DNA of 64,000 nt from Ryuthela nishihirai (lineage: Eukaryota > Arthropoda > Arachnida > Araneae > Heptathelidae). The notes under the pieces were generated by a model. The model was not told the origin of the DNA and did no database searches. It saw only the letters and a program-made list of their open reading frames with translations. The position numbers and the translations under genes are program-made. Every line of letters begins with the position of its first letter. Position 1 is the stretch's first letter. Below are positions 601-61,625 of this stretch, piece after piece. Where the stretch lies: contig JAWZYU010000006.1 in the NCBI GenBank assembly GCA_038380435.1, positions 37,512,501 through 37,576,500 on the forward strand, written 5' to 3'.

Positions 601-605
601 AGATA

Positions 606-15345: not shown

Positions 15346-15349
15346 ACGA

Positions 15350-16440
15350 CATAAATTTTGAATTATTACTCAGTTATTATACTACATTAATTTTGAAATA
15401 TTACACAGTTATTACATTGCATTGATTATTGACTATTACTTACTTTTATATTACATTAATCATGAATTATTACTCAGTTATTACACTACATTAATTGCGA
15501 ATTATTCTTTCCATTATACTATATTAATTTTGAATCTTTATTCAGTTATTACACTACATTAAGTATGAAATATTACTTCCTATTATACAACATTAGTTTT
15601 GAATTATTACTCAGTTATTATTCTACGTTAATAATAGATTATTACTCTCTATTTTATTATATTAATTTTGAATTATTACTCACTTATTACACTACATTAA
15701 TTATGGATTCTCTCCTTATTACACTACATTAATTGTGAGTTATTACTCAGTTTTTATACTGCATTAATTATCGAATATTACTCCCTATTAGATGCAAAGC
15801 GTGAGAGGAAGCAATTAGGATATTGAGACTGATTAATGATTCTTACGGTTCATTGATTTACCAAATTAACAAATACTTGTCAATAAGCCAATAGTGTCAT
15901 TGATCAGAAATTGCATTATAGATCATTCGTTGACTGAAAAGCGACTTTTAGCTTCGTCAGCCAATGATCTACAGGAATCGTCGTTTCGTCAACTGCGCAG
16001 TCTCATTGTCTCAATTGCTTCCACTACGCTTTGCAGCTGATCCTTATTATAATGTATTAATTTTGAATGATTATCCAGTTATTACACTACATTAAGTATG
16101 GATTATTACTCCAAATTCTGTTACATTAATTTTGAATTATTACTCATTCATTACACTACATTAAAATGTATATTTGCTCCTTATTATACTACATTAATTA
16201 TGAATTATTAATTCCTGATTTACTACGTTATTTTTCGGTTATTACACTTCATTAATTTTGAATTATTAGCCAGTTATTAGATTTAATTAAATATGGATTA
16301 TTACTCTATGCTACACAAATTTTGAATTATTACTAAGTTATTACACTGCATTAATTTTGGATTATTTCTAATTTATTATACAGTATTAAATACGGATTAT
16401 TACTCAATTATTACACTACATTACTTTAATATTATGTATA
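15350..16440 (+). repeat. AT-rich satellite, ~35-bp unit
   Basis: Degenerate tandem copies of a unit with ATTATTACTCAGTTATTACA and CTACATTAATTTTGA. About 24 units, strongly diverged, interrupted by the MITE at 15794-16034. Confidence 0.9.
15794..16034. mobile_element. MITE with ~38-bp terminal inverted repeats
   Basis: The left end GCAAAGCGTGAGAGGAAGCA... and the reverse complement of the right end GCAAAGCGTAGTGGAAGCA... match over about 38 bp with small differences, both reaching GAGACTG. The 241-bp interior is non-coding and clearly unlike the host satellite. No certain target duplication could be defined. Confidence 0.75.
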
Positions 16441-16469: not shown

Positions 16470-17046
16470 TGTTGTGAATTTAAATGAATAAGCACTGAGC
16501 GTGAGTATAATTAAGTATATTTTTAGAATATAAATTACAAATTATTATAATTGTGTGGATGAAATAACTTATTAACAAACTAACTACTATCGTGCATAAG
16601 TTAATAACCTTTTTCTACAGAACAGTTAAGACCGACTCTGTCTGCTGAACCGAATTATTACCTCTTCATTTTGATTGCCAAGTCTCTTGAATTTCTTCAT
16701 TTCAGACGTAAAGAATCCTTTTTTTGCGCTAACTCATTAGATTTATTATATTAGTAAAAAATAATAATCAGGCGCGCACACACCATATAAAAATATGTCT
16801 TGTTTTTGACTTATCACGCACTGATTCAGGTAATCTATACCTCCTTTTTAGATCTATACCTCCTTTTTAGATCTAAACCTCCTTTTTAGATCTCTTCAAT
16901 TCCAGCACTGAAATTCTATTATTCTCTTTTTCAGGTCGGTTCTACATTCAAATTCGTTTGTTGTATAAATCTCACGCACAAGTATATGCGAGCGTTCATG
17001 TCACGTTTTTCATGAAGTCACTGCAGCACGTTCATCTGTCGTAACA
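16470..17046 (-). mobile_element. 3' LTR of decayed gypsy element
   Basis: Begins TGTTGTGAAT... and ends ...CTGTCGTAACA on the plus strand, 577 bp. It shares the terminal blocks CACTGAGCGTGAGTAT and CTGTCGTAACA with the young LTRs at 36113 and 39661. A 20-bp unit with CCTCCTTTTTAGATCTA is triplicated inside at ~16837-16893. The internal side at 17047 is a polypurine tract. Confidence 0.88.
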
Positions 17047-17066
17047 CTGCCCCCCCCCCTCCTTAG
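17047..17066 (-). other. polypurine tract of gypsy element
   Basis: On the minus strand a purine run GAGGGGGGGGGG directly precedes CAG and then the LTR start TGTTACGACAG. This is the plus-strand primer site for reverse transcription. The same layout occurs at 36757. Confidence 0.8.
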
Positions 17067-18318
17067 GTCTTGTTCGTCCCGAACAATTCTGGATTCCGAA
17101 GATTCTTCAGTTCTTCGATGAAATGGAGCCAAGCAATCTACGTGAACCACCTTGCACTTTGTAGTTGGACGTTGACGAATGCGATATACCACGTCGTTAA
17201 TCCTGTTAACTATCGTATATGGACCTTCCCAAGGTTTCTGAAGTTTTGGAGAAAGCCTCTTCTATGTGGATTGTATAGCCAGACAAGATCTCCTTGATTG
17301 AAAACAGTTCCATTTATTTTACTGTCGTATCTCGTTTTGGTTGTCTCGTTTGCTAAGTTGATGTTATGTCTAACGGAGAGATTGATTTCTTCTAGTCGTT
17401 GTTGTATTCTTGTATGTATTGTGGAGGATACAGGTATTGCTTTGGGCCGACCCCGAAGCAATGCCTTTTAATGTAGTGTAATAACTGGATAATCATTGCT
17501 TCGGGCCGATCATATAAAAGGTCATAGGGAAGACGTAACTCTCTTCCAAAGAGCATCATGGAAGGTGTCTGTACAGTAGTCTTGTGCATTGCTGTTCTGT
17601 ATACCAACAAAAGGAGTGGTATATGGTGATCCCAGTCACGTTGATGGTCGTCGACAAACTAATATGTTGTGCAATTGTCCTATTATTCCTCTCAACCATA
17701 TCATCCAACTGAGGGTGAAGAGAAGTTGTTCTTGTTTTCTGAATACCTAAGAGTTGACAGATGCCTTTAAACACATTGGATTAAAAATTCCGTCCTTGGT
17801 CTGAGTGGAGTTGTAAAGATACTCCATACCTACTAATCAAGTTATTTACTATTATCTCTGCAACTGTTGTTGCCTCCTGGTCTTGGATGGGATAGACTTC
17901 AAGACACTTCGTGAAATAATCTATTACCACTAATAAATAATGATTTCCATCATCAGTTCTACGAAACGAAATCATTACATCAATGGCTATTCTCTCAAAA
18001 TGAGCACCAACATTATATGTCTGCAGCTTACCCTAACTCCTAGTCTTAGGGTCTTTGCTGCACAACCTCACATTGCCTACACCATCTTTGAACGTCTGCC
18101 CTACTTTTCAGTCAATGAAATCGTTCCCTGGTTTTACCCAATGTCTTATTAATATTGAAGTGTCCTCCAGTGGCATTATCATGCACATCTTTCATCACTA
18201 GTTCCCCTCGGAAGCAAAGAAGGATTATCTGCCAACGGATCCGCCGTCCAGTGGGATTCTCCCATTTTCTGTATAATATACACCGTCCTTCACTTCTAAG
18301 GAGTCCCACTGTGCCCAA
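17047..18318 (-). pseudogene. Ty3/gypsy integrase, broken
   Basis: Several short minus-strand frames together cover an integrase. 18112-18318 has the start of the zinc-binding domain (VHDNATGGHF). 17781-17975 has the catalytic core with VVIDYFTKCLEVYP (first Asp) and LHSDQGRNF (second Asp). 17556-17774 carries TTSLHPQLDDMVERNNRT, the region of the catalytic Glu. 17392-17610 reads YRTAMHKTTVQTPSMMLFGREL and 17210-17461 GDLVWLYNP. The last piece, 17010-17192, contains KCKVVHVDCLAPFHRRTEE and runs into the LTR. Frameshifts separate the pieces, so it is inactive. Confidence 0.9.
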
Positions 18319-18690
18319 TAACTTTTAGTAGTTGGACTATACCTCGAGATGTGTTCCCAATTTGATCTTACATCATATTTTTCAATCAAATCCATTATTG
18401 GTCATATCTTCATCGTCTAGTTGGGCCTTTCTAATTTCTATTGGACTCCAGATGTTAGGAGTATCACTGTTTGCTTGTGTCGATGTTATTTGTCTTATGG
18501 GCATAACCTACTCAGTTACAAATTTCAACTCTGCATTACAGCAATGTTTACGGTTTTCAATTCATGGAAGTCTGGAAAGGGCATCTGCATTCTTAGGGAT
18601 TTTACCATTTCGATGCTCGATGGAAAAATTGTATTCTTGTAACCGTTTATCCACTAGCGATTTGTCCTTCAGGTTTTTAAAGTTCAGTAA

Positions 18691-20286
18691 TCATCTAAGT
18701 GCATCATGATCAGTGCGTATAAGTAATTTTTGGCCATAGAGATAATGATGAAAATATTCTATTGCTCTTACTATTGATAACATTTCTATTCGTGTAACAC
18801 AATAATTTCTTTCTGGTTTGGATAGTTTTACTAAAATATGAAATAACGTTTTCTTGTCCGTCTTGTTGTTGTGAAAGTACAGCACCAACTCCTGTGTTAC
18901 TTGCGTCAGTATCTATTATGAATTATTTTCTAGTTTGTTGATATGCTAACACTGGTGCTGTGGAAAGAGCTTGTTTCAGCTGTTGGAAGGCTACATCACA
19001 TTCGGTGGTCCACATAAACTGCTGGCCCTCCTCTGTCAGACGACGTAATGGCCTTGCGATGTTAAAGAAACCCTTGACAAATCTTCTACAGTAGGTGCAA
19101 AGTTCAATAAAAGTACGAGGTTGATGAACATCTTGTGGTGGAGACCAATCTCTTACAGCTTCTATTTTACTAGGATCAGTCTTAATCCCTGATGTAGTGT
19201 TCACATGATCAAGGGAATGAACTTGCTGGAACAATTTACACTTAGTCGGTCCTACTTTTAGCTTGGCTGCCCTACGTTTTTCAAACATTTGACGAAGATT
19301 TCTAAATGTTTTTCAAAAGTTCTTCCAAGAACGATGATGTCGTCCAAGTAAACCAGGCAGACCTTCCATGACAAGAGCATCGACTCCATTAGTTGTTCAA
19401 ACGTTGCAGGTGCATTGCAAAGTCCAAATGGTATCACTTTAAACTGCCAAAGTCCATTTCCTGAAGTGAAAGCTGTTTTCTCCTGGTCTTCAGGATGTAT
19501 ACCAACTTGCCAATAGCCTCTTTTCAAGTCTAATGTCGAGAGCCATTCTGACCCAGATGGAGTGTCCAGCTAAATGGAGTTTCCTAAAAATTATTTATAG
19601 TCGCTAAATGGAGTTTCCTAAAAATTAGTTATACGCACTGATCATGCTGCAATTAGATCATCAATCTTGGATAAAGGAAAACAGTCTTTCTTTGTTATAT
19701 CATTTAATCTGCGATAATCCACACAAAATCGGGTAGAGCCATCATTTTTCTTGACAAGAACCGCTGGTGATGTCCAGGGACTCTGTGATGGTTCTATAAT
19801 GTCTTCAGAATCCCTGTCCCTTATGAGTTGCTCTGTTTCCTCTCGTTTTGCCAATGGAAGCTTTCTTGCCGGTAGCTCTACAGGAGGAGAATCACCAGTG
19901 TTGATCTTACGTTCTATCAGGTTAGTTCGTCCATAATCATTTGATGTAGCAGAAAAAATGTCGGAAAACTCTTTTAGTAGGTTCTCTGGCTTAGCAGCTT
20001 GGTCTTCAGTTAATATTCTTCTTGTTTCTTTCCATAAGTCAGTAAGATGAGATGGAATGTCTGTATGATGTTGGTTTGAGTCAGTAACTTCTATTGTGTT
20101 TACACTTGTTACCCATGTAACAGGTTCACCTATTGCTAATTCTTCACCCTTTTTCAATATTCTATTGGATTTGTTACAGTTCATCACTCTGATAGGAATC
20201 TGTTCTTTATCTATATTGACTACAGTTCTTGCAACCAGGATACCATGAGCCAAAGCTCCTTTACCAGGGGCATCAGAGAACGGCAT
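18691..20286 (-). pseudogene. Ty3/gypsy reverse transcriptase and RNase H, broken
   Basis: 19642-20286 holds the linker and the start of reverse transcriptase: SPAVLVKKNDGSTRFCVDYR and RLNDITKKDCFPLSKIDDL. 19258-19527 gives KVIPFGLCNAPATFEQLM and the catalytic YLDDIIVLG. 18923-19288 covers the thumb and connection. 18691-18888 holds RNase H-like NYCVTRIEMLSIVRAIEYF and IRTDHDALR. Between 19527 and 19642 a short piece with GCTAAATGGAGTTTCC is tandemly duplicated, disrupting the domain. Gene order PR-RT-RH-IN is that of Ty3/gypsy elements. Confidence 0.92.
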
Positions 20287-20358
20287 TCGTAATGCTCCAG
20301 AAGTCTCTGCCCGATTTCCACGGACTATAACTTCACTTTGTGCTGGGATTTCTGTGTC

Positions 20359-20721
20359 TTACATTACTAATATTGTAGCCACGCTTGATAAAGATTCAGA
20401 TGTTCGACCAAGCAGAGGGATCTCTTCTGTCTTATAGATGATTAGGCTGTCACTGGGTCTTATGCTGAAGCCATATTTCGTAAGGAAATCAAGGCCTAAT
20501 ATGCATTTATCGTAGATGTCAGCGATGTAAAAAGGATGGCGTACCAGACAGCTACCAACTCGGATGTTAAGTTCTATCTTTCCATGTACTTTAACACGAT
20601 CTCCAGTGGCTGTCTGTAGGGTTATATTAGAATGTATAGTATTCCAATTTGGATGAGGTATTAGTTTCTTTATTTTATTTGTTCTGAGCAAAGTTACATT
20701 TTCACCAGTGTCTACTATCAC
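20359..20721 (-). pseudogene. gypsy aspartic protease
   Basis: The 120-codon frame starts at the active-site motif VDTGENVTLL (usual form DTGA) and contains CILGLDFLTKYG, the ILG motif that closes retroviral-type proteases. It would process Gag-Pol. Its upstream part is out of frame with the zinc-knuckle piece. Confidence 0.85.
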
Positions 20722-21292
20722 ACGGCAAGTATTCCATTTATGGTTCCATCAGCTACTAATCCGTTATCTTCACCATGTAGTGCGTGGGCGACTTCCCCTG
20801 GGGCCAACCAATGAGCAGCCAGCCTTTGCCTTTCACGTTTCTTCTGCTGGTTCTGTTGTCTGTTAGACGTGCTTGAACTTTGTACCCACCACTTTTTGCA
20901 GTTGGCTCGAATGCGTCTAGTCGTACCACAATTCCAACACTGTATGCTTATAGAAGTTCTTGGAGAGGAACCTTTAATGTCTTTCAAAACGGATAATATA
21001 GCTTGGTTAATTCTTTCATTTCACTATCCTTTTCTACAATTTCTTCTGCATTCACAAATCTCACTGTACGTTAGTTCGCTCGGGAGGAAAGCCTGGAGCA
21101 CTCGTATTTCATAGCATGTACCACAGCTGACTTTATTGTTTCACCTTCCAACATCTTCAGAGATTGTTGAGTCTCAGGGTCAGCAAGAGCATCAATAAAT
21201 TGTAATTGAGCTAAGTTATGTTGGATTTCTGGTGGACAGTTACTATAAGCCAATCTAGCTAGACGTTCAATATCATTAACAAGTACTTGCAA
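20718..21292 (-). pseudogene. gypsy Gag-like fragments with zinc knuckle
   Basis: 21071-21292 reads RLARLAYSNCPPEIQHNLAQ, typical of the C-terminal part of a gypsy Gag. 20718-20987 contains CWNCGTTRRIRANC, a CCHC knuckle whose His has become Arg. The N-terminal Gag and 5' LTR of this element are not found between 21300 and 21900. Confidence 0.75.
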
Positions 21293-21309
21293 AGTTTCGC
21301 CACTCTATA

Positions 21310-21900
21310 TTGAGTCATATAGTATTATTTTAAATAACTATCACCAAACCTGAGTTCTAATGCAGAAACCAGACTTGATAATCAAATCGATTTTCTTCTG
21401 GATCTTTTTCCAATAGAATAAAACATTTCGCACGCATTATCAGTAATGGAATAATACGGATGTATATCATATATCTATGCTGAGAATGTCTAGAAACTTA
21501 CTTCTTCTTTCTGCGCAAAATTTCCGCCATTACAGTTATACAACTTTTGCATTATTTCATACCACATCCTACTTTTCCCGAATTAATTTGTTCAATCTGA
21601 TAACTATGGGCACGAGAAACGAAAGAAAAAAATACTTAATCATAAATATATTACGTGTTCTGATGTAGTAAATTTCTGGATAAAATATTTATTATTATTG
21701 AAATAAAGTTTTACATTTAGTGTTTCCATGTGGAGGAATGGGAAATATAATTTGTGGGTGTTAAATCGATGAAAGCTAATTTTTCGGATTTTTTTAAGTG
21801 CATAATGTTTGATTAAGATGGAAAGTTGAATTCGACAGTTTTCCGTTTTTTCTCGCCGTAAAAGAAAATGCCTTTCATTGGCTATCTGTTTCGCAACCGT
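21310..21900. other. unassigned AT-rich DNA
   Basis: No recognisable end of the gypsy element, and no gene. Confidence 0.4.
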
Positions 21901-25274: not shown

Positions 25275-25620
25275 AGATATTGATCGAGGTGGGAAGGGGG
25301 GGGGGTCTCAGTTTTAGATTTGGTCAGGAGCTAAAAAATGCTTAATTCGGGCCCAGTCAATTACAGGAATAAAAATTCTTCTTTTTTTCTGTTTCATAAA
25401 AAGAAAAAGCCGAATTAATATTGAATCAATAAATAGCAAAAGTTATAAGAGATTGAAAGCTTTTTTACGTTTAGAAAATATTATTTGTCTTTGAAAAGTA
25501 GAAATATAGAAAGATTATGTGGGTTTCGAATTTATAGAAAGTTGTAAACAATTGTTTTACAGATAGAGATGATAAATATTTTCTGTGTTAAAGTACAGGT
25601 CTTCACTTAAATTATATTAC
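25275..25620. other. unassigned DNA
   Basis: A short G run at ~25297, otherwise no recognisable feature. Confidence 0.4.
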
Positions 25621-25629
25621 GCATTTGAT

Positions 25630-26246
25630 GGGGGGGGGGGGTGAAACTCAGTCGGTAGCGCCAGGTTCCCAGTTCCCAGGTTCGAGTCCCAGCTGGGTCA
25701 GCGTTGAGATTTATCTCCGCAAAACTGTCCGCCCTACCATCGGTCAGTAGGGGGGACAATGATGGACTTGGAAAGGCTGTCTCCGTTGCATGAGACGTTA
25801 AGTCGTGGCCCCGTGTGCGGAAGAGCCATACCCTTTGCCCGTTAAAGAACACGCTGGATGGCCTTGACGGGAGGCTACCATCTATTTCCCAAATCTGTCC
25901 AGTGGGTCCCCTTCCCCAACCTTCTCTGAGCCCTCGGGATCCTTGTGACCTGGCCATTTAGCCCATGGTGTGCAAAAAAGTGCCGCTCAGAGGTAAAACA
26001 ATCCAACGTTAAAGAACACGCTGGATGGCCTTGAAGGGAGGCTACCATCTAAAAGTGCCGCTCAGAGGTAAAACAATCCAACGTTAAAGAACACGCTGGA
26101 TGGCCTTGAAGGGAGGCTACCATCTATCTCCCAAAGCTGTCCAGTGGGTCCCCTTCCCCAACCTTCTCTGAGCCCTCGGGATCCTTGTGACCTGGCCATT
26201 TAGCAGATTGTGGGCAAAAAGTGCCACTCAGGGGTAAAGCATACCA
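25630..26246 (+). mobile_element. SINE family 1 with partial tandem duplications
   Basis: A complete but diverged copy runs 25630-26008. Directly after its tail comes a mid-element piece starting GTTAAAGAACACGCTGG. It jumps at GGCTACCATCT to the tail block AAAAGTGCCGCTCAGAGG, then a second mid-to-tail piece runs to 26246. Both extra pieces share the variant CCTTGAAGGGAGG, so they arose from one another by tandem duplication. Confidence 0.88.
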
Positions 26247-33342: not shown

Positions 33343-35985
33343 AGTAGCCATGGGCTACGGGAGGTCCAACAAGACCGTGCAATTCAGTTCTCCAAGCAAG
33401 TCTGTCCTGAGCTACATCTACTGCATCTGGCTACTGCACACCAATTCTAACAAGGTCCTGTTTGACATTGTCTGCCCACCGCATCCTGGGTCTCCCCTTC
33501 TTTCTGAGGCCTTTAGGTACACTGTTCATAAACCTATTCGCCAATCTATAATTATTCATACGGGCAACATGGCCAAACCAACGGAGTCTCTCTCTGCACA
33601 ATATGCTGCTTAAAGGAGGTTGCAAACTCCTTTGCCTAACTTCATCATTAGTTACAAAGTTGAACCACCTAATGCCCAAGATACTGCGTAAGCATCTAGT
33701 TTCCTGTTATCTTGTTTACAAAGTGTCCAAGTTTCACTACCATAACTAACCCTAGAAAGAACCAAACTATTATACAGCCTAATTTTAGTTTTTAGGTGTA
33801 TACGCCTATTTCTCCACACTCTCCATAGATTCTTAAAAGTCCCGGCAGCAATCCCTATTCGTCTGTTAATCTCATGCCACACATCACCATTATCTGTTAC
33901 ATAGCTCCCAAGATAATTAAACTGTGACACCTGCTCAAGACTGCAACCATTCAGATTAACTGAATCACAGTCTGCCTGACCAATTTTCATCACTTTAGTT
34001 TTCTCTCTGTTTATAACCAAACCTACTCTACTACCAATTTCATCAACAGCTCGAATGAAAGAGTTCATCTCATCAACATCATTTGCCAAAAGGGCTAAAT
34101 CATCAGCATAATCTAAATCAGAAATTTTCGTATCTCCAGTACATTTAAGGCCAAAATCTTTCCCTTGAAGTGAATTTTGCATAACATAATCAATAACCAA
34201 ACTAAAGAGAAAAGGAGACAAAATGCACCCTTGTCGAACACCAGAAGTAATGCTAAACCAATTGCTACAAGCTTTACCAACTCTCACACACCGCTCAGTG
34301 TTATTATAGAGAGCTTTCATTATGTTAACTAACTTGTCAGGTATACCATATGATTTCACAATCAACCACAAATTATGACGATCAACAGAGTCAAAAGCCT
34401 TTTTGAAATCAACAAAGCTAGCAACCAAAGGTTTCTGAAACTCTAAACATTTCTCATGAATCTGCCTAAGTGAAAATATGTGATCCACACATCCCCTACC
34501 ACTTCTGAATCCACATTGCTCATCACGCAATTGACTGTCAACCAGATTCTTAATTCTATTAAGCACAATCATGGAAAGAACTTTACCTGGAACAGAGAGT
34601 AGGCTGATACTCCTATAGGTATGACAAGAACTGCGATAACCTTTTTTGAAAATATGGATAACAATAGCTCTCGTAAAATCCTTAGGAACCATGCCTTTAT
34701 CATAAAAGATATTCAGAATTTCAGTCATCCAAGTGGTAACCGAAACATTCCCAGCTCTGAGCATTTCTGTAGTAATTTCATCTACCCCTGGGGATTTATG
34801 AAGTTTGAGTTTAGAAATAGCCAAAATAACTTCTGATTGTGTTATAGAGCCAACATTAAAGCCCCCAATACATTTATCATCACTACAAACAATGGGAGTA
34901 GTACTAACCACATTGTTTAGAACATCACTGAAATGCTCAGCCCACCTAGCCATGACAGAATCCTCACCTTCTATAACCTTAACTTGTTTATCCTTCAATC
35001 CCTGTATACCTGTCCGTTTTCTACCACACAAAACATTAACTATCTGGTACAGCTCTCTGCTGTTGCGCTGTCTAACTGCTTCCTCGGCTTTGTCAGCCAT
35101 GCCATCAAACCAAAAATTCTTATCAGCAGCTAACTGATCCTTTACACGTTTATTACGTTCTCTGTAATGCTTTCTATTAGGACTAGTATGGTATTGACTA
35201 AGGACATTCCTGCAGTTCTTTCTTTCTGAAATAAGCTCAAGTGCCTTATCACTCAGATAATTCTGTCTCCTCTGCTCCTTTACTCCTAAAAGTGTACTGT
35301 TAGTTTCCAAAAAAGCCTGTTTAAAATGATCCCATTCTTCCTCAACTTCAGTAGTAAGCATACCATAACTGTCATAATGACTAAGTAACCTATCATGGCA
35401 AGCTTTGACTATAACTGGGTCATTCAGAGCTTCAGTATTAAAAGTAAATTTTTTAACTCTAGCACAACACTTTTTAAGTTTAAGTTGCAAGATACTTTTA
35501 ACAAGGTAATGGTCAGATCCAATTTCAGCTACCCTATATGACCTGGTATTCCTAACAGAACTAGCCCATTTGCTGTTAATTAATATATAATCAACTGTAT
35601 TCTTATGCAGTCCATCGGGTGAAACCTATGTGTACTTATGTATGTCGCGGTGTTTGTAATATGTGTTAGTTATTCTGAAACCATTGAGTTTACTTACCTG
35701 TAGGAGACGTTGCCCATTGCCATTGCAGCTACCAATACCAAATTGGCCTATCACGTATCCCCAAAGGTCAGAGTCAGTACCAACTTTGGCATTAAAGTCA
35801 CCTAGAACAAGGGTAATATCTCCTTTTTTGACAGAATTCAAAATATCCTGAAGTCCGTAAAACCTATCCTTCTCATCCTCATCGGCATCCTCAATGGGGG
35901 CATAACAGCAGATAACATTCAAATCTTTAACGATTGTCTGAAATTTTGCTGTAAGAAACCTTTCATTAATGCACTCATATGGAAT
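33343..35985 (-). pseudogene. RTE-like non-LTR retrotransposon, endonuclease plus reverse transcriptase, nearly intact
   Basis: The minus strand reads one ORF with few defects. The APE-type endonuclease begins inside the domain at ~35985 (5' truncation) and shows ICCYAPIED, LVLGDFNAKVG, NGNGQRLL and IHKYT. An amber codon at 35626-35628 replaces the Trp expected after HKYT. The frame then continues without a shift through VDYILINSKW and SDHYLVKSIL into the 612-codon stretch 33652-35490. That stretch holds the reverse transcriptase: KLKLHKSPGVDEITTEML, CGFRSGRGCVDHIF, ASFVDFKKAFDSVDR, GVRQGCILSPFLFSL, catalytic LDYADDLALLA and FNYLGSYVTDNGD. Near 33680-33700 a small deletion shifts the frame. 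The C-terminal piece 33431-33679 (LRWFGHVARM, GRPRMRWADNV) follows, and a second TAG precedes the last ~30 codons before the tail. Such LINEs copy themselves by target-primed reverse transcription; this copy is disabled. Confidence 0.9.
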
Positions 35986-35989: not shown

Positions 35990-36112
35990 AAAAAACATAG
36001 TGTCAATAAGGAAGCAAAAAATGTGATTGAGAACTGAGGGAAATGCTGTTTTGAGCATAAAAGAACTAATGGATTTATTTACGTATATATAAATAAAGTA
36101 TATATAAAGTAT
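35990..36112. other. AT-rich flank of the LTR element
   Basis: Contains TATATAAAGTA-type repeats near 36083-36112 that resume on the other side of the LTR element at 40305-40460, so the element inserted into this short tandem array. Confidence 0.6.
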
Positions 36113-36756
36113 TGTTGCGGATCACAAAAATGGATAGCCACTGAGCGTGAGTATTAAAAGCTATATTTCAAAACCAAATTCAATACAAGGTAAATTGTTA
36201 CAAAGGAAATATGGATGAAGTATCTTATTAACCAATCAACTACTAACATGCACAAATCATCAATCTTCCTGCGTAGAGCACACAACATCAGCTCTGTGTA
36301 TTTTACTAAATACTACCTTTTACTTGATTTACCAGATCACCCGAAGATCTTCACTCGTAAACCAATTCTCGTCCTGTGCTAATAACTTTTCACACACTAG
36401 CCGAACAAAAAGACAGTCCGTGTAGACATTCGAAGTTAGCCATAAAAGTTCCCACTTTTATACTTCCGCGTATACACAACACATCAAGTTACTTCTTGAT
36501 ACTTAACGATAAAAGATCCCACTTTTATCTTTCCGCGTATACACAACACATCAAGTTACTTCTTGATACTTACGCGCACTGTCTCAGAACAGCTCACCGT
36601 CCATTTTCGAACTCTTCGACCGTTACAATACACAACGACCGTTACAATACAAAACGACCGTTAACGCTCCACTCTTCTTCTCCAAATTCTCCCAACGTTC
36701 TTATTCGTTGGCTGAAACTTTTTGCTTTCGGTTGCCAGATTCCTTCTGTCGTAACA
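36113..36756 (-). mobile_element. 3' LTR of the chimeric element
   Basis: 644 bp, identical to 39661-40304 except for one base in an ACTTTTATC(T/C)TTCCG context. A ~75-bp internal paragraph with CCGCGTATACACAACACATC is duplicated within each LTR. The last 31 or so codons of the element ORF lie in this LTR. Confidence 0.97.
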
Positions 36757-39630
36757 CTGCCCCCTTCCTAGGTCTTGTTCGTCCCGAACAATTCTGGATT
36801 CCAAAGTTTCTTCAGTTCTTCGATGAAACGGGGCCAAAAGATCCACGTGAACCACCTTGCACTTTGTAGCTGGACGTCGACGAATGCGGTATTCCACGTC
36901 TGTGTCAAAATGAAAGCGAATCTCATTATGACTTAGATTTCTTTTCTGACTGAAGCCTCGTCCACAAATATAATACGTGTAAGGCCTATAGCCCTTGTGA
37001 ACACGTTTATGTCTCCGCAGGGAGAAGAATCGACTAAGAGTTTTCGTGCAAAACCTGTAAAAAGTTTTCTTCTTTGTCGAAAGTTTTCTTCTTTGGATTT
37101 TTACTTCTATCAACAGTAACAAGGAATGAAAGTCATTAGTGACATAAAATCTAGGGAGGAGTTTCATCCTCCAGTCTGACCCTTTTGTCAGTTGACTTTC
37201 ACTTAATTCAGAACTGTCGTGATGAACCTTCAGCCATATTTCACCTGATTCAATTTGATCCCCAAGGTGCTTCACAATTATATCAGCTCCATAATTCTTT
37301 TTAGCGCTTCGGTCCATCTCCTCCTTCCATACTCTTGCTAGGACTGCAGCTTCTAATCCGACAACCTTACCTGTTTCTCCTGTATAAGTGAAATCAGTGA
37401 TGTGTCGGGCTGCTAGCAATATTTTTTCTGTTTTATCTTCACATAGCCAGCTTGCAACATCTTCAGATACTCCTTGTTCTATTAACATGTTACGAAACTT
37501 GTTCAAAGCATTGCCGTTATGCAGAACCTTGCGGACACGTGATGCTTCATCTACCCTATTATCCACAATGTTCACCAAACGCAGAAGTTCTCCTCCTAAC
37601 TCTTCGACGAGCTCTTGCAGTTCCAAGGATCCGTCACCAAGGAAACACTGAACAGCTTCCATCACTTCCAGAGAGTTGTCAACAGAGTTTTCAAGAGGTG
37701 AATCCATGTTGCTGATAACAGCTGAACAACTCAAACTCTTCATTCCACGAGCTTGTGATGCTGCAACCATTTTCTTAACTAAATCAACAGCAACATCTTC
37801 TGTACTGATGAGATCAATAGCTCCTTTTCCGAATTCAACATCATAAACCAAAGCGCACACTCCTTCAGCCAGCTTTTTGGACACAATTGAGCATCTCCTT
37901 AGAGGAACGCTATCTACGGTAGCCGTCAGATCCTTGCAGCGGTAAATCTCCTTATCTGTTGGCACCAGCTCCTCTGTCTGTCCTACGATGCAGCATCCGA
38001 CGTCTTCCATCATCTGCTCGATTTTATCTTTAGTGCAGTCGACTGTGAAGCCAGGGATGGATTCCAATTTGTCCAGAGTATCTCCCGTCAATTGGAGAGC
38101 ACGACCGGAGATCATAGGGACCTTGAGACCTAAAGCAGCAAGTGCAGGAGCCAAGACAAGACTCACTTTGTTGCCGACACCTCCTGTGCTGTTTTTATCT
38201 ACCATCCGATGGCGCCACTCGGGTCTCCAGCAAAACATATGACCCGAGGAGGTCATATTTGCTGTTTCTTCCGAATTCACTTTCTTGGAGCTCTCATTGT
38301 AATTAGCCAGGGAAATATCAGTCATGATTGCCAAATTGTTCATTCTGGAGATCAGCGACGAGTTCTGTAACATGATATTGTCCACTTTAGAGCTCTTGTA
38401 GTCGTGATAAAACTTTTCTATATCCTTATAATCTAAATGGTTATAATGTCCAAATCTGCACATTGACTGTTCAGAAAAGAAATTCAGCGTGGCTACGTTG
38501 AAATTATCTGAGGGATTCACTTCTCTCTGATCGTAACTCTGAGGCTTAGTTTCATCCAGAAAGTTAGTCTTTGAAGTACTGTCTCTGCCTGAAGCTCCTT
38601 TACTAGCATCACCTGTTACGCTTCTAAGCCATTCTTCGGAATTCTTCTTTCTTAAATCCCCACTTTCTATAAACGATTCGAGTGTGGCTATATGTTTCGG
38701 AAAAATCTCTCCGACTTCCCCAGTAACGTCGAATGGCACTTTGTATCTATGATGAATGGACGCCTCTTCTTTACTCGGACCACTCTGCGAAACGTAAACT
38801 CTGTTTCGTTCCCCCTCATTACCACTCGTTACTCTGCCTTTGCGATAATTGTCCATGACGCATTTTGCTGACGGCGAGGAATAGAATACCTTTCGTGTGG
38901 ATCTCTCTTCAGATCGTGCCAGACTTGTATACCTAGGTATTTTGAAGTGCAAAGCGTACTGTATAGTCTCACAGCTCTCTGATCTGTGTGATTGTTCTTC
39001 ACAGTTCCTAGACATGTCACCAGCGACATAGACACTCTGCCATGCATCACCAGTAGTTGCGTGGTCAAAGGCATTATCTGCGCTATCTCTACGATTCTTG
39101 ATTTCCAGTAGCAGATCCACATTTTTATATGCGTTGCCTTTCTCTTTTCCATGTTTACAATCTAACTTAACACTATCAAGATCATCTTTTTCACTGACAA
39201 ATTCAACATTTAAACTATTGCATTGTCTATTGAGTTCGGTTTTATGATCCTTGAAGTGATCAATAATCTTACCAACTCGAGAAGCCACTTCAGCTCTCAT
39301 CTCAGTATTTTGTGCGGCCATTTCGGCTTTCAAGTCACCTATTTTATCGCTTTGGGCGGCTATATCACCTTTAATCTCAGTTTTTTGTGCGGCCAGGTCA
39401 CCTATTTTGTTAGCCATATCGGCTTTCAAGTCATTATTTTGACTTTTAATGTCATTCATCTGTGTAGCCATATCGGCTTTCATATCAGTCATCTGCGTAG
39501 CCATATCGGCTTTCATATCAGTCATCTGCGTAGCCATATCGGCTTTCATATCAGTCATCTGCGTAGCCATATCGACTTTCAAGCTATTTATCAACTTTAC
39601 TAATTCATCCATACTTCTAGTTAACGGCAT
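36661..39630 (-). CDS. chimeric ORF: coiled coil, thymidine phosphorylase, zinc fingers, integrase tail
   Basis: 989 codons without a stop. ATG 39630 lies 31 bp after the 5' LTR, as a gag start should, and MPLTRSMDELVKLI is gag-like in character. Residues 1-135 form a coiled coil with an 11-residue repeat DMATQMTDMKA. Residues 136-449 are unrecognised. Residues ~450-815 are thymidine phosphorylase: WRHRMVDKNSTGGVGNKVSL, APALAALGLKVPMISGR, TLDKLESIPGF, CCIVGQTEELVPTDKEIY, DLTATVDSVPL and SKKLAEGVCALVYDV, plus the C-terminal PYNP-like domain to KVHHDSSELS. The family enzyme splits thymidine with phosphate in the cytosol; here the first ~100 residues are missing. Residues ~855-910 resemble two C2H2 fingers (SRFFSLRRHKRVH, CGRGFSQKRNLSH). 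Residues 911-956 are gypsy integrase C-terminus, and the rest is LTR-encoded. Catalytic activity is doubtful because key residues differ. Product function is unknown. Confidence 0.93.
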   Translation of the reverse strand: MPLTRSMDELVKLINSLKVDMATQMTDMKADMATQMTDMKADMATQMTDMKADMATQMNDIKSQNNDLKADMANKIGDLAAQKTEIKGDIAAQSDKIGDLKAEMAAQNTEMRAEVASRVGKIIDHFKDHKTELNRQCNSLNVEFVSEKDDLDSVKLDCKHGKEKGNAYKNVDLLLEIKNRRDSADNAFDHATTGDAWQSVYVAGDMSRNCEEQSHRSESCETIQYALHFKIPRYTSLARSEERSTRKVFYSSPSAKCVMDNYRKGRVTSGNEGERNRVYVSQSGPSKEEASIHHRYKVPFDVTGEVGEIFPKHIATLESFIESGDLRKKNSEEWLRSVTGDASKGASGRDSTSKTNFLDETKPQSYDQREVNPSDNFNVATLNFFSEQSMCRFGHYNHLDYKDIEKFYHDYKSSKVDNIMLQNSSLISRMNNLAIMTDISLANYNESSKKVNSEETANMTSSGHMFCWRPEWRHRMVDKNSTGGVGNKVSLVLAPALAALGLKVPMISGRALQLTGDTLDKLESIPGFTVDCTKDKIEQMMEDVGCCIVGQTEELVPTDKEIYRCKDLTATVDSVPLRRCSIVSKKLAEGVCALVYDVEFGKGAIDLISTEDVAVDLVKKMVAASQARGMKSLSCSAVISNMDSPLENSVDNSLEVMEAVQCFLGDGSLELQELVEELGGELLRLVNIVDNRVDEASRVRKVLHNGNALNKFRNMLIEQGVSEDVASWLCEDKTEKILLAARHITDFTYTGETGKVVGLEAAVLARVWKEEMDRSAKKNYGADIIVKHLGDQIESGEIWLKVHHDSSELSESQLTKGSDWRMKLLPRFYVTNDFHSLLLLIEVKIQRRKLSTKKKTFYRFCTKTLSRFFSLRRHKRVHKGYRPYTYYICGRGFSQKRNLSHNEIRFHFDTDVEYRIRRRPATKCKVVHVDLLAPFHRRTEETLESRIVRDEQDLGRGQCYDRRNLATESKKFQPTNKNVGRIWRRRVER
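36757..36770 (-). other. polypurine tract of the chimeric element
   Basis: Minus strand AGGAAGGGGGCAG abuts the 3' LTR start TGTTACGACAG. It primes plus-strand DNA synthesis in LTR retrotransposons. Confidence 0.85.
36901..37068 (-). other. zinc-finger-like module within the chimeric ORF
   Basis: Residues 855-910 have the spacing of two C2H2 fingers. Finger 1 has Tyr858 where the first Cys is expected, then C861, H874 and H878. Finger 2 has Tyr886 for the first Cys, C889, Asn902 at the usual first His, and H907. Zinc binding is therefore probably lost. The source gene is unknown. Confidence 0.65.
37186..38283 (-). other. captured thymidine phosphorylase segment
   Basis: Using E. coli DeoA numbering, phosphate-site residues are kept: Lys84 is K479, Ser86 S481, Ser95 S490, Ser113 S508 and Thr123 T518. 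On the pyrimidine side Ser186 (S581) and Lys190 (K585) are kept, but His85 is N480 and Arg171 is K566. The loop GLGHTGG has become ALQLTGD. No intron interrupts the segment, as expected from capture of a spliced mRNA. Confidence 0.9.
39437..39585 (-). repeat. 33-bp in-frame repeat in the coiled coil
   Basis: About four copies of a unit containing GTAGCCATATCGGCTTTCAT and ATCAGTCATCTGC on the plus strand, encoding the 11-residue heptad-like repeat DMATQMTDMKA. The near identity shows recent expansion. Confidence 0.9.
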
Positions 39631-39640
39631 TCAATAAATT

Positions 39641-39658
39641 ATCCCGCTGCTGACACCA
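39641..39658 (-). other. primer-binding site
   Basis: Minus-strand TGGTGTCAGCAGCGGGAT lies 2 bp inside the 5' LTR. The leading TGG fits a tRNA 3' CCA end, as used to prime minus-strand synthesis. Confidence 0.75.
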
Positions 39659-39660
39659 AG

Positions 39661-40304
39661 TGTTGCGGATCACAAAAATGGATAGCCACTGAGCGTGAGT
39701 ATTAAAAGCTATATTTCAAAACCAAATTCAATACAAGGTAAATTGTTACAAAGGAAATATGGATGAAGTATCTTATTAACCAATCAACTACTAACATGCA
39801 CAAATCATCAATCTTCCTGCGTAGAGCACACAACATCAGCTCTGTGTATTTTACTAAATACTACCTTTTACTTGATTTACCAGATCACCCGAAGATCTTC
39901 ACTCGTAAACCAATTCTCGTCCTGTGCTAATAACTTTTCACACACTAGCCGAACAAAAAGACAGTCCGTGTAGACATTCGAAGTTAGCCATAAAAGTTCC
40001 CACTTTTATACTTCCGCGTATACACAACACATCAAGTTACTTCTTGATACTTAACGATAAAAGATCCCACTTTTATCCTTCCGCGTATACACAACACATC
40101 AAGTTACTTCTTGATACTTACGCGCACTGTCTCAGAACAGCTCACCGTCCATTTTCGAACTCTTCGACCGTTACAATACACAACGACCGTTACAATACAA
40201 AACGACCGTTAACGCTCCACTCTTCTTCTCCAAATTCTCCCAACGTTCTTATTCGTTGGCTGAAACTTTTTGCTTTCGGTTGCCAGATTCCTTCTGTCGT
40301 AACA
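39661..40304 (-). mobile_element. 5' LTR of the chimeric element
   Basis: 644 bp; see the partner LTR at 36113-36756, from which it differs at one position. It should carry the promoter for the 989-codon ORF. Confidence 0.97.
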
Positions 40305-40460
40305 GTATATATAATTACGTATATATAAAGTAAAATTGCCAAAGGACAAATAGTATATATAAAGTATAATTTCCAAAGGACAAATAGTATATAAATAAAG
40401 TATATATAAAGTATATATAATTACGTATATATAAAGTAAAATTGCCAAAGGACAAATGGG
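40305..40460 (+). repeat. short AT-rich tandem array
   Basis: Three imperfect copies of a unit with ACGTATATATAAAGTA and ATTGCCAAAGGACAAAT. Confidence 0.85.
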
Positions 40461-41231: not shown

Positions 41232-44200
41232 TTCAAGCTTTTTCTGGTTCCATCTCGTTTAAGTGCTTTCAAGTTTCAGTTTAATTGAAGTGCTTTCTGA
41301 TCCTATTTCATTCAAATGCTTTCTGATTCTATTTTAATTATTGTAAGTTAAGTGCTTTATAATTCCATTTTAATTATTATAATTCAAGTGCTTTATGATT
41401 CTATTTTAATTATTGTAATTCGAAAGATATCTGTTTCTATTTCATTCAAGAGCTTTATGATCCTATTTTAATTATTATAATTCAAATGCTTTCTGGTTCT
41501 ATTTCATTCAACTGCTTTACGATTCTATTTTTATTATTGTAATTGAAGTGCTTTATGATTCAATTTTAATTACTCTATTTCAAGTGCTTTCTGTTTCTAT
41601 TTCATTCAAGAAATTTATGATTCTATTTTAATTATTGTAATTCAAGTGCTATATGATTCTATTTTAATTATAGTAATTCAAGTATTTATGATTCTATTTT
41701 AATTATAATAATTCAAGTGTTTAAGATTCTATTGTAATTTTTATAATTTAAGTGTTTATGATTCTATTTTATTTTTTATAATTCAAGTGTTTATGATTCT
41801 ATTTTAATTATAATAATTCAAGTGTTTATGATTCTATTTTAATTATAATAATTCAAGTGTTTTTGATTCTATTTTAATTATAATAATTCAAGTGTTTATG
41901 ATTCTATTTTAATTTTTTATAATTCAAGGGTTTATGATTCTATTTTAATTGTTGTAATTCAAGTGTTTATGATTCTATTTTAATTATTATAATTCAACTC
42001 TTTATGAATATTTCAATTATTATAATTTAAATGCTTTCTGGTTCTATTTCATTCAAGTGCTTTATCATTCTATTTCAATTATTGTAATTCAAGTGCTTTA
42101 TTATTCCATTTTAAATATTATAATTCAAGTGCTCTATGATTCTATTTCGATTTTTGTAATTCAAGTGATTTCTGTTTCTATTTCATTCAAGAGCGTTATG
42201 ATTCTATTTTAATTACTATAATTCCAGTGTTTATGATCCAATTTTAATTATTATAATTTAAATGCTTTCTGGTTCTATTTCATCCAAGTGTTTATGATTC
42301 TATTTTAATTATTGTAATTCAAATGCTTTATTATTCTATTTTAATTTTTATGATTCAAGTGTTTATGATTCTATTTTAATTGTTATATTTCAAATGTTTA
42401 TGATTCTATTTTAATTATTATAATTCAACTCTTTATGAATATTTCAATTATTATAATTTAAATGCTTTCTGGTTCTATTTCATTCAAGTGCTTTATCATT
42501 CTATTTTAATTATTGTAATTCAAGTGCTTTATTATTATGTTTTAATTATTATAATTCAAGTTCTTTATGATTCTATTTTGATTATTGTAATTCAAGTGGT
42601 TTCTGTTTCTATTTTATTCAATAGCTTTATGATTCTATTTTAATTACTATAATTCCAGTGTTTATGATTCTATTTTAATTATTATAAATTAAATGCTTTC
42701 TGGTTCTATTTGATTCAAGTGTTTATGATTCTATTTTAATAATTGTAATTCAAAGGCTTTATTATTCTATTTTAATTTTTATAATTCAAGTGTTTATGAT
42801 TCTACTTTAATTGTTATAATTCAAATGTTTATGATCTTATTTTAATTATTATAATTCAAGTCTTTATGATTATTTTAATTATTATAATTTAAATGTTTTC
42901 TGTTCCTATTTCATTCAAGAACGTTTTGATTCTATTTTAATTATTGTAATTCAAGTGTTTATGATTCTATTTTAATTATTATAATTCAAGTGTTTATGAT
43001 TCTATTTTGATTTTCATAATTCAAGTGTTTATGATTCTATTTTAATTGTTATAATTCAAGTGCTTTATTATTCTATTTTAATTATTATAATTCAAGTGCT
43101 TTATGATTCTATTTTGATTTTTGTAATTCAAGTGATTTCTGTTTCTATTTCATTCAAGAGCTTTATGATTCTATTTTAATTACTATAATTCCAATGTTTA
43201 TGATACTATTTTAATTATTATAATTTAAGTGCTTCATTATTCTATTTTAAAATTTGGAATTCAAGTGCTTTATGGTTCTATTTTAATTAATATAATTGAA
43301 GTGCTTTATGATTCGATTTTAATTATTATAATTCAAATGCTTTCTGGTTTTATTTCATTCAAGTATTATATGATTATATTTTAATTTTTATAATTCCAGT
43401 TCTTTATGATCCTATTTTGACTATTGTAATTGAAACGCTTTCTGGTTCCATTTCATTCAAGTGCTTTATGATTCTATTTTGCTTATTATAATTCAAATGC
43501 TGTCTTGTTCTATTTCATTCAACTGCTATATAATTCTATTTCAATTATTATAATTCAAGTGTTTATGATTCTATTTTAATTTTATAATTCAAGTGCTTGC
43601 TGATCCTATTTTGATTATTATAATTCAAGTCTTTATGATTCTATTATAATTATTGTAATTCAAGTGCTTTATGATTCCATTTTACTTATAATTAAAGCGC
43701 TTTCTGGTTCTATTTCATTGAAGTGCATTATGATTCTATTTGGATTAATATAATTCAAATGTTTATGATTCTATTTAATTATTTTAATTCAAATGCTTTC
43801 TGGTTCAATTTCATTCAAATGTTTATGATTCAATTTTAATTATTTTAATTCAGTTGCTTTATGATTCTATTTTGCTTATTATAATTGAAGTGCTATATGG
43901 TTCTATTTGATACAAGTGCTATATGATTCTATTTTAATTATTATAATTCAAGTATTTATGATTCTATTTTAATTATTATAGTTCAAGTGCTGTATGATTC
44001 TATTTTGATTTTTATAATTCAAATGCTTTCTAGTTCCAATTCATTCAAGTGTTATATGATTCTATTTTAATTATTATAATTCAAGTGTTTGTGATTCGAT
44101 TTTAATTTTTATAATTCAAGTGCATTATGATTCTATTTTTATTATTATAATTCAAATGGTTTCTGGTTCTATTTCATTTAGGTGCTATATGATTCTATTT

Positions 44201-51353: not shown

Positions 51354-53278
51354 TGTTACGACAAATAAATGTGCTACAATGAATCGTGATGTGATGTATC
51401 GTATTGATGCTTGTGAAAATTATGTCACCAACTACTTCGAAAGAACTTGATTTAAAAAAAATAAAGAATAAAGAGTAATTAAGAGGAATTGGAGTGCGAA
51501 GAAAAGCGTCGTTTGTTTTAGTCTGCGCGGTATAATAAAAAAAGAAGAAACGTTTTTATTTAGTGTGTTCTCGGGAGATTAAATAAATTTATTAGTGTTG
51601 ATCCTGTTAGCGGACTGCAAGAAAATGAAGGATGCTTAGGATATTTAAAAATGTGACTGAGGATGTCATGTACCTCGAATTTTATATTTATTTATTTATT
51701 GTATATTTTTGTTATGTTTTATTGTTGTATATATTTTTATGTGTTCTTGGAAATGTTTGTGCTGGGATGATTCACTGTTGTTGTTTTTCGGGTCTAAAGC
51801 TGTTCCGTGTAAGTGATGACGAATGCCAGCAGTTGTTTATGCCGTAAATGACTAGCCTAGGGGCGCTAGTGCAGCGACGAGGCTTGGCGGTAGATTTGAA
51901 GCGTTAGTCTGTCAGCGAAGAGGTCGCTTGGACACGCGTCAAAGGGACGCCATCTTTCTCAAAGTAACCCTTGAAGTGAGGGTGTGATTCCAGGAGGGAA
52001 TCTAGATTCTGATGTGAATCTGTTTTATTTTTGTGGATTCAGAGGATCCACAGTTTAGGCAAAGGTTGGTTATCCTTTCGTCGAGTATTGAGGTCTGTAA
52101 AGTGAGGATTCGCAGAGCGTGCGATTCTCCACCTCATTATGTTATTGTTTGCAGCAGTGAAGCAGCAAAGGCCCACGGAGTGGAGCTCATTCCCAGCACG
52201 TAGCTGTATATATTATAAATAAAACTGTGTCGTCCCTATCTAACTCTCGTGCAGTAATTACTGGACTTTTGTTATTCGTCATTCGACACCGGTTTCTTCA
52301 AAGGCGTGCAGTGGCACGGGCCTAAAACCCGAGAACCTGTAATTTCACCGAAGTGAATCTGAAGTAATTATTAAACAACAACCGCATCGTCCTCCGGCAG
52401 CCACGATGTTTGGCTCAGTTTCCGTAGATCTGAGAAGGGAGGACATCATATCTGGCCCAGTCGGACAGGATCCGAACCCAGGGTTCCCAGGTTCGAGTCC
52501 CAGTTGGGTCAGCGTTGAGATTTTTCTCCGCAAAATTTCCCGCCCTGCCCACGGTCAGTAGGGGACACCGATGGGCTTGGAAAGGCCGCCGTCCGTCGGA
52601 TGGGACGTTAAGCCGTGGCGCCGTGTGCGGGAGAGCCATACCCTGTGCACGTTAAAGAACACGCTGGATGGCCTTGACGGGAGGCTACCATCTGTCTCCC
52701 AACAGCTCTTCCAGTGGGTCCCCTCCCCCAACCTTCTCTGAGCCTTCGGGGTCCATGTGACCTGGCCATTTAGCCCATTGTGTGCAAAAAAGTGCCGCTC
52801 AGAGGTAAAACAACCCAACCCAATCCGAACCCAGGTCATCACATCTGTCATAGTCAGACAGCATCGGAACTTCATTGGGTCATCACAGAGGAGGTCATAT
52901 GTTAGTCGAACAAACACAGCTAATCTCAACTTTTCTGTAGGAAGAGTTCATTATTTGATGTATAGTTATATTTAGTTTGTTTAGGAATTGGTAAGGTTAT
53001 TTTTTATAGATTGCAGGTTTGTTCACAAATATGATTTTGCCACTGATCGACTGTTGTAAAAGCCTTATATTATGATTTTGTGTAGATAGTAAGAATGGTA
53101 ACAAGGTGTTAAGTTCTTTTGAAGATTTATTTTCATACTGATATAGATTTATATTAGTTGAGTTTATATAAATGTTTTCATTTATACTTTTGTAATAAAT
53201 TACATTATTTTAGAATTATAATTGTTAAATACTTTTTTTTGAACTCACGCTCAGTTCACATCCGTTTAATTCATAACA
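51354..53278 (+). mobile_element. solo LTR-like element of gypsy type, 1.9 kb
   Basis: Starts TGTTACGACAAATAAATGTG, matching the gypsy LTR starts read from 17046 and 11713. It ends AACTCACGCTCAGTTCACAT... CATAACA, matching their other end (CACTGAGCGTGAGTAT reversed). ATAT flanks both sides, but in low-complexity sequence. No gag or pol is seen inside; a 71-codon frame at 51632 has no motif. The SINE 52483-52822 is inserted. It is either an unusually long solo LTR or an internally deleted element. Confidence 0.7.
52483..52822 (+). mobile_element. SINE family 1, 5'-truncated, inside the LTR
   Basis: Perfect 13-bp duplication, ATCCGAACCCAGG, at 52470-52482 and 52823-52835. The copy begins at GTTCCCAGGTTCGAG, so the A box is missing. 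The duplication itself resembles B-box-like sequence. Nearly consensus, hence young. Confidence 0.95.
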
Positions 53279-57489: not shown

Positions 57490-57970
57490 GTTGGGTTGGG
57501 TTGTTCTACCTCTGAGCGGCACTTTTTTGCACACCATGGGCTAAATGGCCAGGTCACAAGGACCTCGAAGGCTCAGAGAAGGTTGGGGGGTTGGGTTGTT
57601 TTACCTCTGAGCGGCACTTTTTTGCACACCATGGGCTAAATGGCCAGGTCACATGGACCCCGAAGGCTCAGAGAAGGTTGGGGGAGGGGACCCACTGGAA
57701 CAGCTGTTGGGAGATAGATGGTAGCCTCCCGTCAAGGCCATCCAGCGTGTTCTTTAACGTTCACAGGGTATGTCTCTCCCGCACACGGGGACACGGCTTA
57801 ACGTCCCATCCGACGGCGGCCTTTCCAAGCCCATCGGTGTCCCCTACTGACCGTGGGCAGGGCGGGGAATTTTGCGGAGATAAATCTCAAGGCTGACCCA
57901 GCTGGGACTCGAACCTGGGAACTACAGATTACGAGCCTGGCGCGCTACCGACTGAGCCACCCCCGCCCAT
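57490..57970 (-). mobile_element. SINE family 1, second nested copy with duplicated tail
   Basis: Flanked by the perfect 12-bp duplication CCCCGCTCAAGG at 57478-57489 and 57971-57982. It contains a complete copy (57593-57970) plus an extra ~103-bp tail piece (57490-57592). Confidence 0.88.
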
Positions 57971-58084: not shown

Positions 58085-58580
58085 CCGCCCTGCCCACGGT
58101 CAGTAGGGGACACCGATGGGCTTGGAAAGGCCGCCGTCCGTCGGATGGGACGTTAAGCCTTGGCCCCGTGTGCGGGAGAGCCATACCCTGTGCACGTTAA
58201 AGAACACGCTGGATGGCCTTGACGGGAGGCTACCATCTGTCTCCCAACAGCTGTTCCAGTGGGTCCCCTCCCCCAACCTTCTCTGAGCCTTCGGGGTCCA
58301 TGAGACCTGGCCATTTAGCCCATGGTGTGCAAAAAAGTGCCGCTCAGAGGTAAAACAACCCAACAACAACTCTGAGCCTTCGGGGTCCATGTGACCTGGC
58401 CATTTAGCCCATGGTGTGCAAAAAAGTGCCGTTCAGAGGTGAAATAACCCAAATCCCCAATCTTAAATAATCTGCTAAAAAGCTTCTCTGAGCCGTCGGG
58501 GTCCTTGTGACCTGGCCACTTAGCCCATTGTGTGCAAAAAAGTGACACTCAGAGGAAAAACAAATATCAAACAACCTAAC
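58085..58580 (+). mobile_element. SINE family 1 truncated copy plus two tail fragments
   Basis: 58085-58365 is a head-less copy. Tail-only pieces follow at 58371-58452 and 58486-58580, all in the same orientation, each beginning near CTCTGAGCC(T/G)TCGGGGTCC. Confidence 0.88.
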
Positions 58581-60894: not shown

Positions 60895-61625
60895 GGGGCG
60901 GGATCTCAGTCCCTAGCGCACCAGGCTCATAATTCATCCTATGTGGGCCAGAGCTGATATTTATCTCCGCAAAACTCTCCGACCTACCCTAGGTCAGTAG
61001 GTAACACCTATGGGCTTGGAAAGACCGCCGTCCTTTGTATTGGAAGTTTAGCCTTGGTACCGTGTGCGGGTTGGGTTGTTTTACCTCTGAGCGGCACTTT
61101 TTTGCACACCATGGGCTAAATGGCCAGGTCACATGGACCCCGAAGGCTCAGAGAAGGTTGGGGGAGGGACCCACTGGAACAGCTGTTGGGAGACAGATGG
61201 TAGCCTCTCGTCAAGGCCATCCAGCGTGTTCTTTAACGTGCACAGGGTATGGCTCTCCCGTACACGGCTTAACGTCCCATCCGACGGACGGCGGCCTTTC
61301 CAAGCCCATCGGTGTCCCCTACTGACCGTGGGCAGGGTGGGGAATTTTGCGGAGATAAATCTCAACGCTGACCCAGCTGGGACTCGAACCTGGGAACTAC
61401 AGAATACGAGCCTGGTGCGCTACCGACTGAGCCACCCCCGCCCCCACCGTGTGCGGGAGGCCATACACTGTGCACATTAAAGAACATGCTGGGTGGCCTT
61501 GACAGGAACAGCTGTCACATGGGTCCCTTCCCCCAACCTTCTGTGAGACCTCGTGGTCTTTGTGATCTGCATATTTAGCCCATTTTGTGCAAAAAGTGCC
61601 GCTCAGAAGTAAAACAACCCACTGA
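60895..61625 (+). mobile_element. old SINE family 1 interrupted by a younger copy
   Basis: The 5' half 60895-61070 and 3' half 61446-61625 form one diverged plus-strand copy, split by the minus-strand SINE 61071-61445. Confidence 0.88.
61071..61445 (-). mobile_element. SINE family 1 nested in SINE family 1
   Basis: Near-consensus minus copy flanked by a perfect 12-bp duplication, ACCGTGTGCGGG, at 61059-61070 and 61446-61457, a piece of the host SINE's own conserved centre. Confidence 0.95.

Follow-up and report, generated by a model that had tools for sequence, protein, structure and literature searches.

We present here an LTR retrotransposon whose single open reading frame (ORF) fuses a thymidine phosphorylase (TP) segment to retroelement-like and zinc-finger pieces. 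We consider it probable that this is a recent, apparently non-autonomous gypsy-type element whose chelicerate-type TP, predicted to be dead, came from a spliced host mRNA by template switching of reverse transcriptase (RT). The element lies in a 64-kb window, the whole stretch of DNA that was analyzed, and is present there in one copy.

Element structure and insertion site

The complete element occupies positions 36113-40304 on the minus strand. Its 5′ LTR (39661..40304, minus strand) and 3′ LTR (36113..36756, minus strand) are each 644 bp long, start with TG, end with CA, and are identical at 643/644 bases, with the sole mismatch at 36530. The 4-bp target-site duplication (TSD) GTAT flanks the element on either side (36109..36112 and 40305..40308). 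When the flanks are joined with a single GTAT, the resulting empty site equals 70/70 bases of a tandem-repeat copy at 40388-40457; the insertion target is this tandem repeat, of which the neighboring copy is unoccupied. A single difference over 644 LTR bases, together with an intact TSD, shows that the insertion is recent and the copy young.

A primer-binding-site-like (PBS) sequence, TGGTGTCAGCAGCGGGAT (39641..39658, minus strand), is located 2 nt inward of the 5′ LTR; no other such site was found in the window when up to 4 mismatches were allowed. We take it to resemble the complement of the 3′ end of tRNA-Leu; no tRNA genes were found in the 64-kb window. The polypurine tract (PPT) AGGAAGGGGGCAG (36757..36769, minus strand) directly adjoins the 3′ LTR. 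An earlier note on this DNA had described one LTR element at 36109..40308 with 644-bp LTRs, a 4-bp duplication, a PBS, and a PPT, and each of these components was recovered. The same note had asked whether the LTRs might belong to two different elements. The empty-site match and the GTAT copies indicate that both came from one insertion, and an origin in two elements is ruled out by the 643/644 identity together with the 70/70 empty site.

Each LTR contains an internal 70-bp tandem duplication whose copies are 93-94% identical (36436-36572 and 39984-40120). Beside the element, 41252-41988 holds tandem arrays spaced at 26/36 and 35 bp.

Hybrid reading frame

Between the LTRs lies the single 989-codon ORF that the earlier note had reported, an uninterrupted frame (36661..39630, minus strand) that starts just after the PBS and ends within the 3′ LTR, which holds its last codons. 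When the bases of five ORF segments were shuffled, four were open in 0/2000 shuffles, and the integrase/LTR tail was open in 0.8%.

The N-terminal residues 1-140 (39211..39630, minus strand) form a coiled coil built on 11-residue repeats. The segment had been called a gag-like coiled coil; the coil stands, while no gag family in Pfam matched it, and it can be termed gag-like only by position and repeat pattern. The orphan middle of the ORF (residues 141-396; 38443..39210, minus strand) is an open frame for which no relative was found. A search with residues 130-460 returned 0/1512 candidates at E ≤ 1 (eligible proteins were 0.55-1.75 times 989 aa long), and a single-sequence fold of residues 130-450 had a mean pLDDT of 33 and no confident fold. 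A Pfam hint of the NSUN2 pre-PUA domain in the middle of the ORF (E = 0.027, 15.3 bits) is under the cut-off of 24.

Residues 397-455 (38266..38442, minus strand) occupy the expected place of the TP N-terminal domain, with homology that is not convincing. The TP segment follows in one uninterrupted frame with an altered active site (residues 456-816; 37183..38265, minus strand) and is identified by sequence, profile, and fold. A linker (residues 817-857; 37060..37182, minus strand), in which A content over 48 nt reaches its maximum for the ORF, connects it to two C2H2 zinc-finger remnants (residues 858-905; 36916..37059, minus strand). The remnants have a PDB match to PRDM9 (E = 4.3e-12), yet fall under Pfam cut-offs, and have one cysteine apiece (861 and 889) where two are expected. 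Residues 911-957 (36760..36900, minus strand) form a gypsy integrase C-terminal tail, which shares 85% protein identity over 47 residues and 90% DNA identity over 141 bp with a decayed gypsy relative at 17055-17195; against Pfam Integrase_p58_C it scores 19.6, or 21.2 as an isolated piece, short of the cut-off of 27. Finger remnants and an integrase C-terminus had both been read from this frame before, and these matches agree with that reading.

At E ≤ 1, Pfam detects no protease, RT, RNase H, or integrase core in the element, and D[TS]G and YxDD-type motifs are absent from its ORF. Judged by its sequence, it is not an autonomous Ty3/Gypsy (Metaviridae) element, the polymerase genes being undetected, and it would need outside proteins to move. 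It is apparently a non-autonomous, Ty3/Gypsy-derived element, a derivation indicated by the integrase tail, LTR ends, and PPT that it has in common with the gypsy relative.

That relative (16470..~21600, minus strand; the outer limit is approximate) contains a 3′ LTR, an integrase tail, RNase H and protease matches, and gag traces seen by eye. The 3′ LTR (16470-17046) has the same end sequence as the element LTR and aligns with it at a score of 66.6, with 375/534 aligned columns identical, compared with -0.9 for the best of 50 shuffles; the two PPTs are similar. An aspartyl protease match passes its Pfam cut-off, an RT-RNase H match does not reach its own, and the two stand in gypsy order; the 238-aa piece between the protease and RNase H is RT-like by eye, with no Pfam match at 0.01. 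Its 5′ LTR was looked for in the window and not found. The TP element would derive from an autonomous element of the kind that this relative represents.

Thymidine phosphorylase segment

ORF residues 456-813 align to human TP from the PDB with E = 4.3e-77, and the segment scores 276.7 bits against NCBIfam NF004490 (cut-off, 269) and E = 2.3e-33 against PF00591; these three results rule out a chance match. A profile of 11 TPs (6 identified chelicerate TPs and 5 further sequences) scored 455.6 bits against the ORF, aligned from residue 397. The earlier note had placed ~365 residues of TP here, captured in frame, and had proposed a protein search with residues 450-815. The segment found is close to this (456-816, ~361 residues, in a single frame), and nucleoside phosphorylases were matched as anticipated, with TP homology unconvincing upstream of residue ~456.

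The TP search gave 7957/7996 scored proteins at E ≤ 0.001. The closest among the best 120 of the 7957 matches was from Limulus, at 48% identity, and the top ten also included Tachypleus, four spiders, and four others. In a maximum-likelihood tree with 32 rows, drawn with a midpoint root, the element TP and 11 chelicerate-group TPs fall on the same side of a branch with 100/97 support, and the element TP stands beside a group containing all four spiders (support, 81/78). By its sequence, the captured TP thus groups with the chelicerate type, and the host of the element is probably a chelicerate. The 11 chelicerate-group TPs are without a precomputed PF07831 label (presumably PYNP_C), unlike most other animal TPs among the matches listed.

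A search with ORF residues 130-980 found 25 proteins among 7994 scored, 23 with a TP core and 2 zinc-finger proteins. A retroelement domain was recognized in none of the 25 matched proteins, the scored candidates being those with the most shared words, so that a relative of the fusion could be missed. Further domains in some of the 23 TP-core proteins include cytidine deaminase, tetraspanin, and SCO1, judged by Pfam accession. Viral contigs gave no match.

Active site and predicted fold

Human TP numbering was obtained by subtracting 364 from the ORF number, from the gapless start of the human TP alignment. On this numbering, the element TP carries H116N, D123N, G153D, R202K, and K235E, with ORF residues N480, D517, and K566 standing at H116, G153 (phosphate loop), and R202, respectively. 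Each of the five positions is invariant in 116/116 compared TPs (the 120 best-listed minus 4 dropped for length). The element TP keeps 62/70 near-invariant core columns and departs from 8, with H116N, R202K, and G153D among these departures, compared with 4 for the worst of the 116 other TPs, and over all 77 near-invariant columns it departs at 13 and the others at most at 4, in a comparison that favors those 116 because the columns were picked on them.

In PMC2719695, the human TP mutants H116F, H116K, R202E, and R202S had no measured activity, H116N not being among the mutants assayed, and the N-terminal helices of human TP are given as the dimer interface. R202K and G153S in TP are predicted to be deleterious (PMC11069602).

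The N-terminal dimerization domain is not convincingly present in the element, and both sequence and model lean toward its absence. Residues 380-470 score 10.1 bits against the 11-TP profile, but this piece includes true TP from residue 456; residues 400-462 score -0.4 bits and residues 130-460 score -4.8 bits. Shuffling residues 380-455 cost ~4 bits on average, with 5/100 shuffles reaching the native score, and ORF residues 406-452 have pLDDT values of <50 in the predicted model. The PF00591 core fold is present in the TP segment by both sequence and model. The predicted fold has a pTM of 0.80 and superimposes on human TP (2wk5) with a TM score of 0.81 and an rmsd of 2.0, in a model that leans on 23 aligned TPs.

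Given the five active-site changes and a dimerization domain that is not convincingly present, the TP module is predicted to be folded but catalytically inactive. A working thymidine enzyme is rejected as unlikely, since H116, R202, and G153 are changed and the H116 and R202 mutants of human TP are inactive. The role in handling thymidine within a virus-like particle that the earlier note had suggested is unsupported: H116, R202, G153, D123, and K235 are all changed here though kept in 116/116 TPs elsewhere. The changes could already have existed in a host TP paralogue.

Six of the 8 core-column departures (ORF residues 480-783; 37282-38193, minus strand) are explicable by a single sense-strand G-to-A change. 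The excess has a simulation P value of 0.0008 to 0.014, depending on transition bias, in a post hoc comparison of few sites. The pattern is of the kind left by editing of reverse-transcribed DNA.

Origin of the hybrid frame

The TP segment and finger remnants lie in sense orientation and in frame between the coiled-coil start and the integrase tail, and this orientation together with the single open TP frame fits copying from mature mRNA. Template switching between LTR element RNA and packaged mRNA has been described (PMC5408686). In the mechanism that we favor, host mRNAs would have been co-packaged with element RNA and joined to it by copy-choice in reverse transcription, and the captured pieces would have taken the place of most gag and pol sequence. 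Reverse transcription and integration may have been provided in trans by proteins of an autonomous relative like the one now decayed at 16470-21600, presumably acting on the LTRs, PBS, and PPT of the TP element itself. The TP module is predicted to have no enzymatic role in the particle and to be carried as cargo or, at best, to act as a spacer. Its identity to the best listed TP is 48%, yet 361 open codons and 62/70 columns are kept, which suggests that it was under constraint during most of its past, either as a host gene until lately or by selection within the element.

The main rival, which we regard as unlikely, is arrival at the DNA level, in which a TP processed pseudogene made by a LINE would have entered a gypsy copy, by insertion or recombination, before that copy transposed once more. 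Directly after TP comes the 48-nt stretch of the ORF with the highest A content (37062-37109, minus strand; residues ~841-856); it contains repeated AAAGAAGAAAACTTT and is 58% A, compared with an ORF mean of 33%; only 3/2922 windows of the ORF reach this value. One possible reading is that an older retrocopy left a poly(A) tail that has since decayed, and this counts against the mRNA-capture explanation. An old retrocopy would also account for the active-site changes, and an ORF that reads as a LINE-type RT is near by (33652-35625). However, there is no clean poly(A), the longest A run being 5; the longest exact word common to the TP edges is 7 nt and falls inside the A-rich stretch, with no clear LINE target duplication; and TP is without its own C-terminus ahead of that stretch. 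Moreover, several sense-strand, in-frame joins would imply several independent DNA events, and we retain capture from a host mRNA as the preferred explanation.

Whether the TP module does anything for the element bears on two further readings. That the element represents an animal LTR family with a TP pseudoenzyme, its catalysis lost and its fold kept through repeated transposition in a hybrid gag-like protein, seems quite unlikely. More doubtful still is that the element kept the module for use, be it catalytic or, more likely, non-catalytic, as a stable particle fold or in nucleoside/nucleic-acid binding. Such use would fit a 989-codon frame intact across modules, the 62/70 near-invariant TP core columns kept, and a TP core confidently folded in prediction. 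It fits poorly with the change of all five active-site residues, a dimerization domain not convincingly present, the loss of cysteines also from the fingers of the same ORF, and the single copy seen in the 64-kb window.

Domestication of an LTR element into a gene that serves the host could explain the long intact ORF, but LTRs with 1/644 differences and an intact TSD mark a young copy, and the catalytic and zinc-binding residues are changed; we hold this to be very improbable. An assembly artefact is hardly credible: the inner joins are known from the assembled sequence alone, but the LTR pair and TSD are complete, the empty site is exact, and one frame runs through several joins.

Comparison with known elements

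The maize LTR element Bs1 keeps gag and is without pol. It holds segments of three host genes (PMC13317346 and PMC5408686), and the title of a reference cited in both names its hybrid ORF. As an LTR element with host gene pieces and a hybrid ORF, it is a close precedent. Bs1 belongs to a plant and contains ATPase, xylan endohydrolase, and glucanase pieces, whereas the present element is a gypsy-type one, probably of a chelicerate, with TP and zinc-finger pieces. Among the pieces fused in its frame, TP is clear, the fingers are present but degraded, and the coil is gag-like in the limited sense given above. By analogy, the element is likely an animal parallel of Bs1.

LTR-mediated retrocopies have also been reported in animals (PMC5408686). 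In metazoan LTR-mediated retroposition (Tan et al. 2016, as described in PMC5408686), host mRNA was likewise joined to LTR cDNA by template switching; here, in contrast, the TP piece lies in one intact ORF of a fully bounded element. Crocodilian endogenous retroviruses, LTR retroelements of animals too, have captured host mRNA from KIT-ligand and nectin3, but they are retroviral, with nectin3 in place of the envelope protein and KIT-ligand ORFs under reported purifying selection (PMC4299795). Enzyme domains have been acquired by orchid Ty3/Gypsy elements, whose AlkB domain is active in vitro (PMC9289625), and by bdelloid LTR elements, which took up GDSL/DEDDy ORFs and a dUTPase and in which the GDSL invariant residues are intact (PMC5408684). 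Unlike in the orchid and bdelloid elements, the TP active site is altered here and the piece is fused into the main ORF. Compared with animal TYMP of the chelicerate group, the element TP shares the core fold and the 62/70 near-invariant core columns but is without a convincing N-terminal domain, has a C-terminus that is cut short, and has active-site residues replaced.

The earlier note had called the fusion undescribed. For TP this agrees with the open-licence literature, in which, among the matches listed, no report of TP in any retroelement was found; the kind of event, however, has precedents in Bs1 and in animal LTR retrocopies (PMC13317346 and PMC5408686). If confirmed, the element would be a clear-cut counterpart in animals of maize Bs1, with host-type pieces, including most of an enzyme, in one intact frame, and it would test whether captured folds persist as pseudoenzymes or merely ride along. 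If the donor genes were also known, it could be read step by step, at single-base resolution, how animal gypsy elements join captured mRNAs to their own sequence.

Other features of the window

Close to the element, a 657-codon stop-free frame at 33652-35625 (minus strand) matches RVT_1 at E = 7.7e-36 and is LINE-type by eye. A DDE_3 transposase fragment is located at 14887-15369 (minus strand), and 588-1694 (plus strand) holds a frame matching RNase H that is probably part of a retroelement. Frames encoding similar peptides (e.g., ...DGSLPSRPSSVFFN...) recur at 6099-6437, 25607-25957, 52555-52947, 57516-57896, 58100-58432, and 61091-61480 and are probably an abundant short interspersed repeat of the genome.
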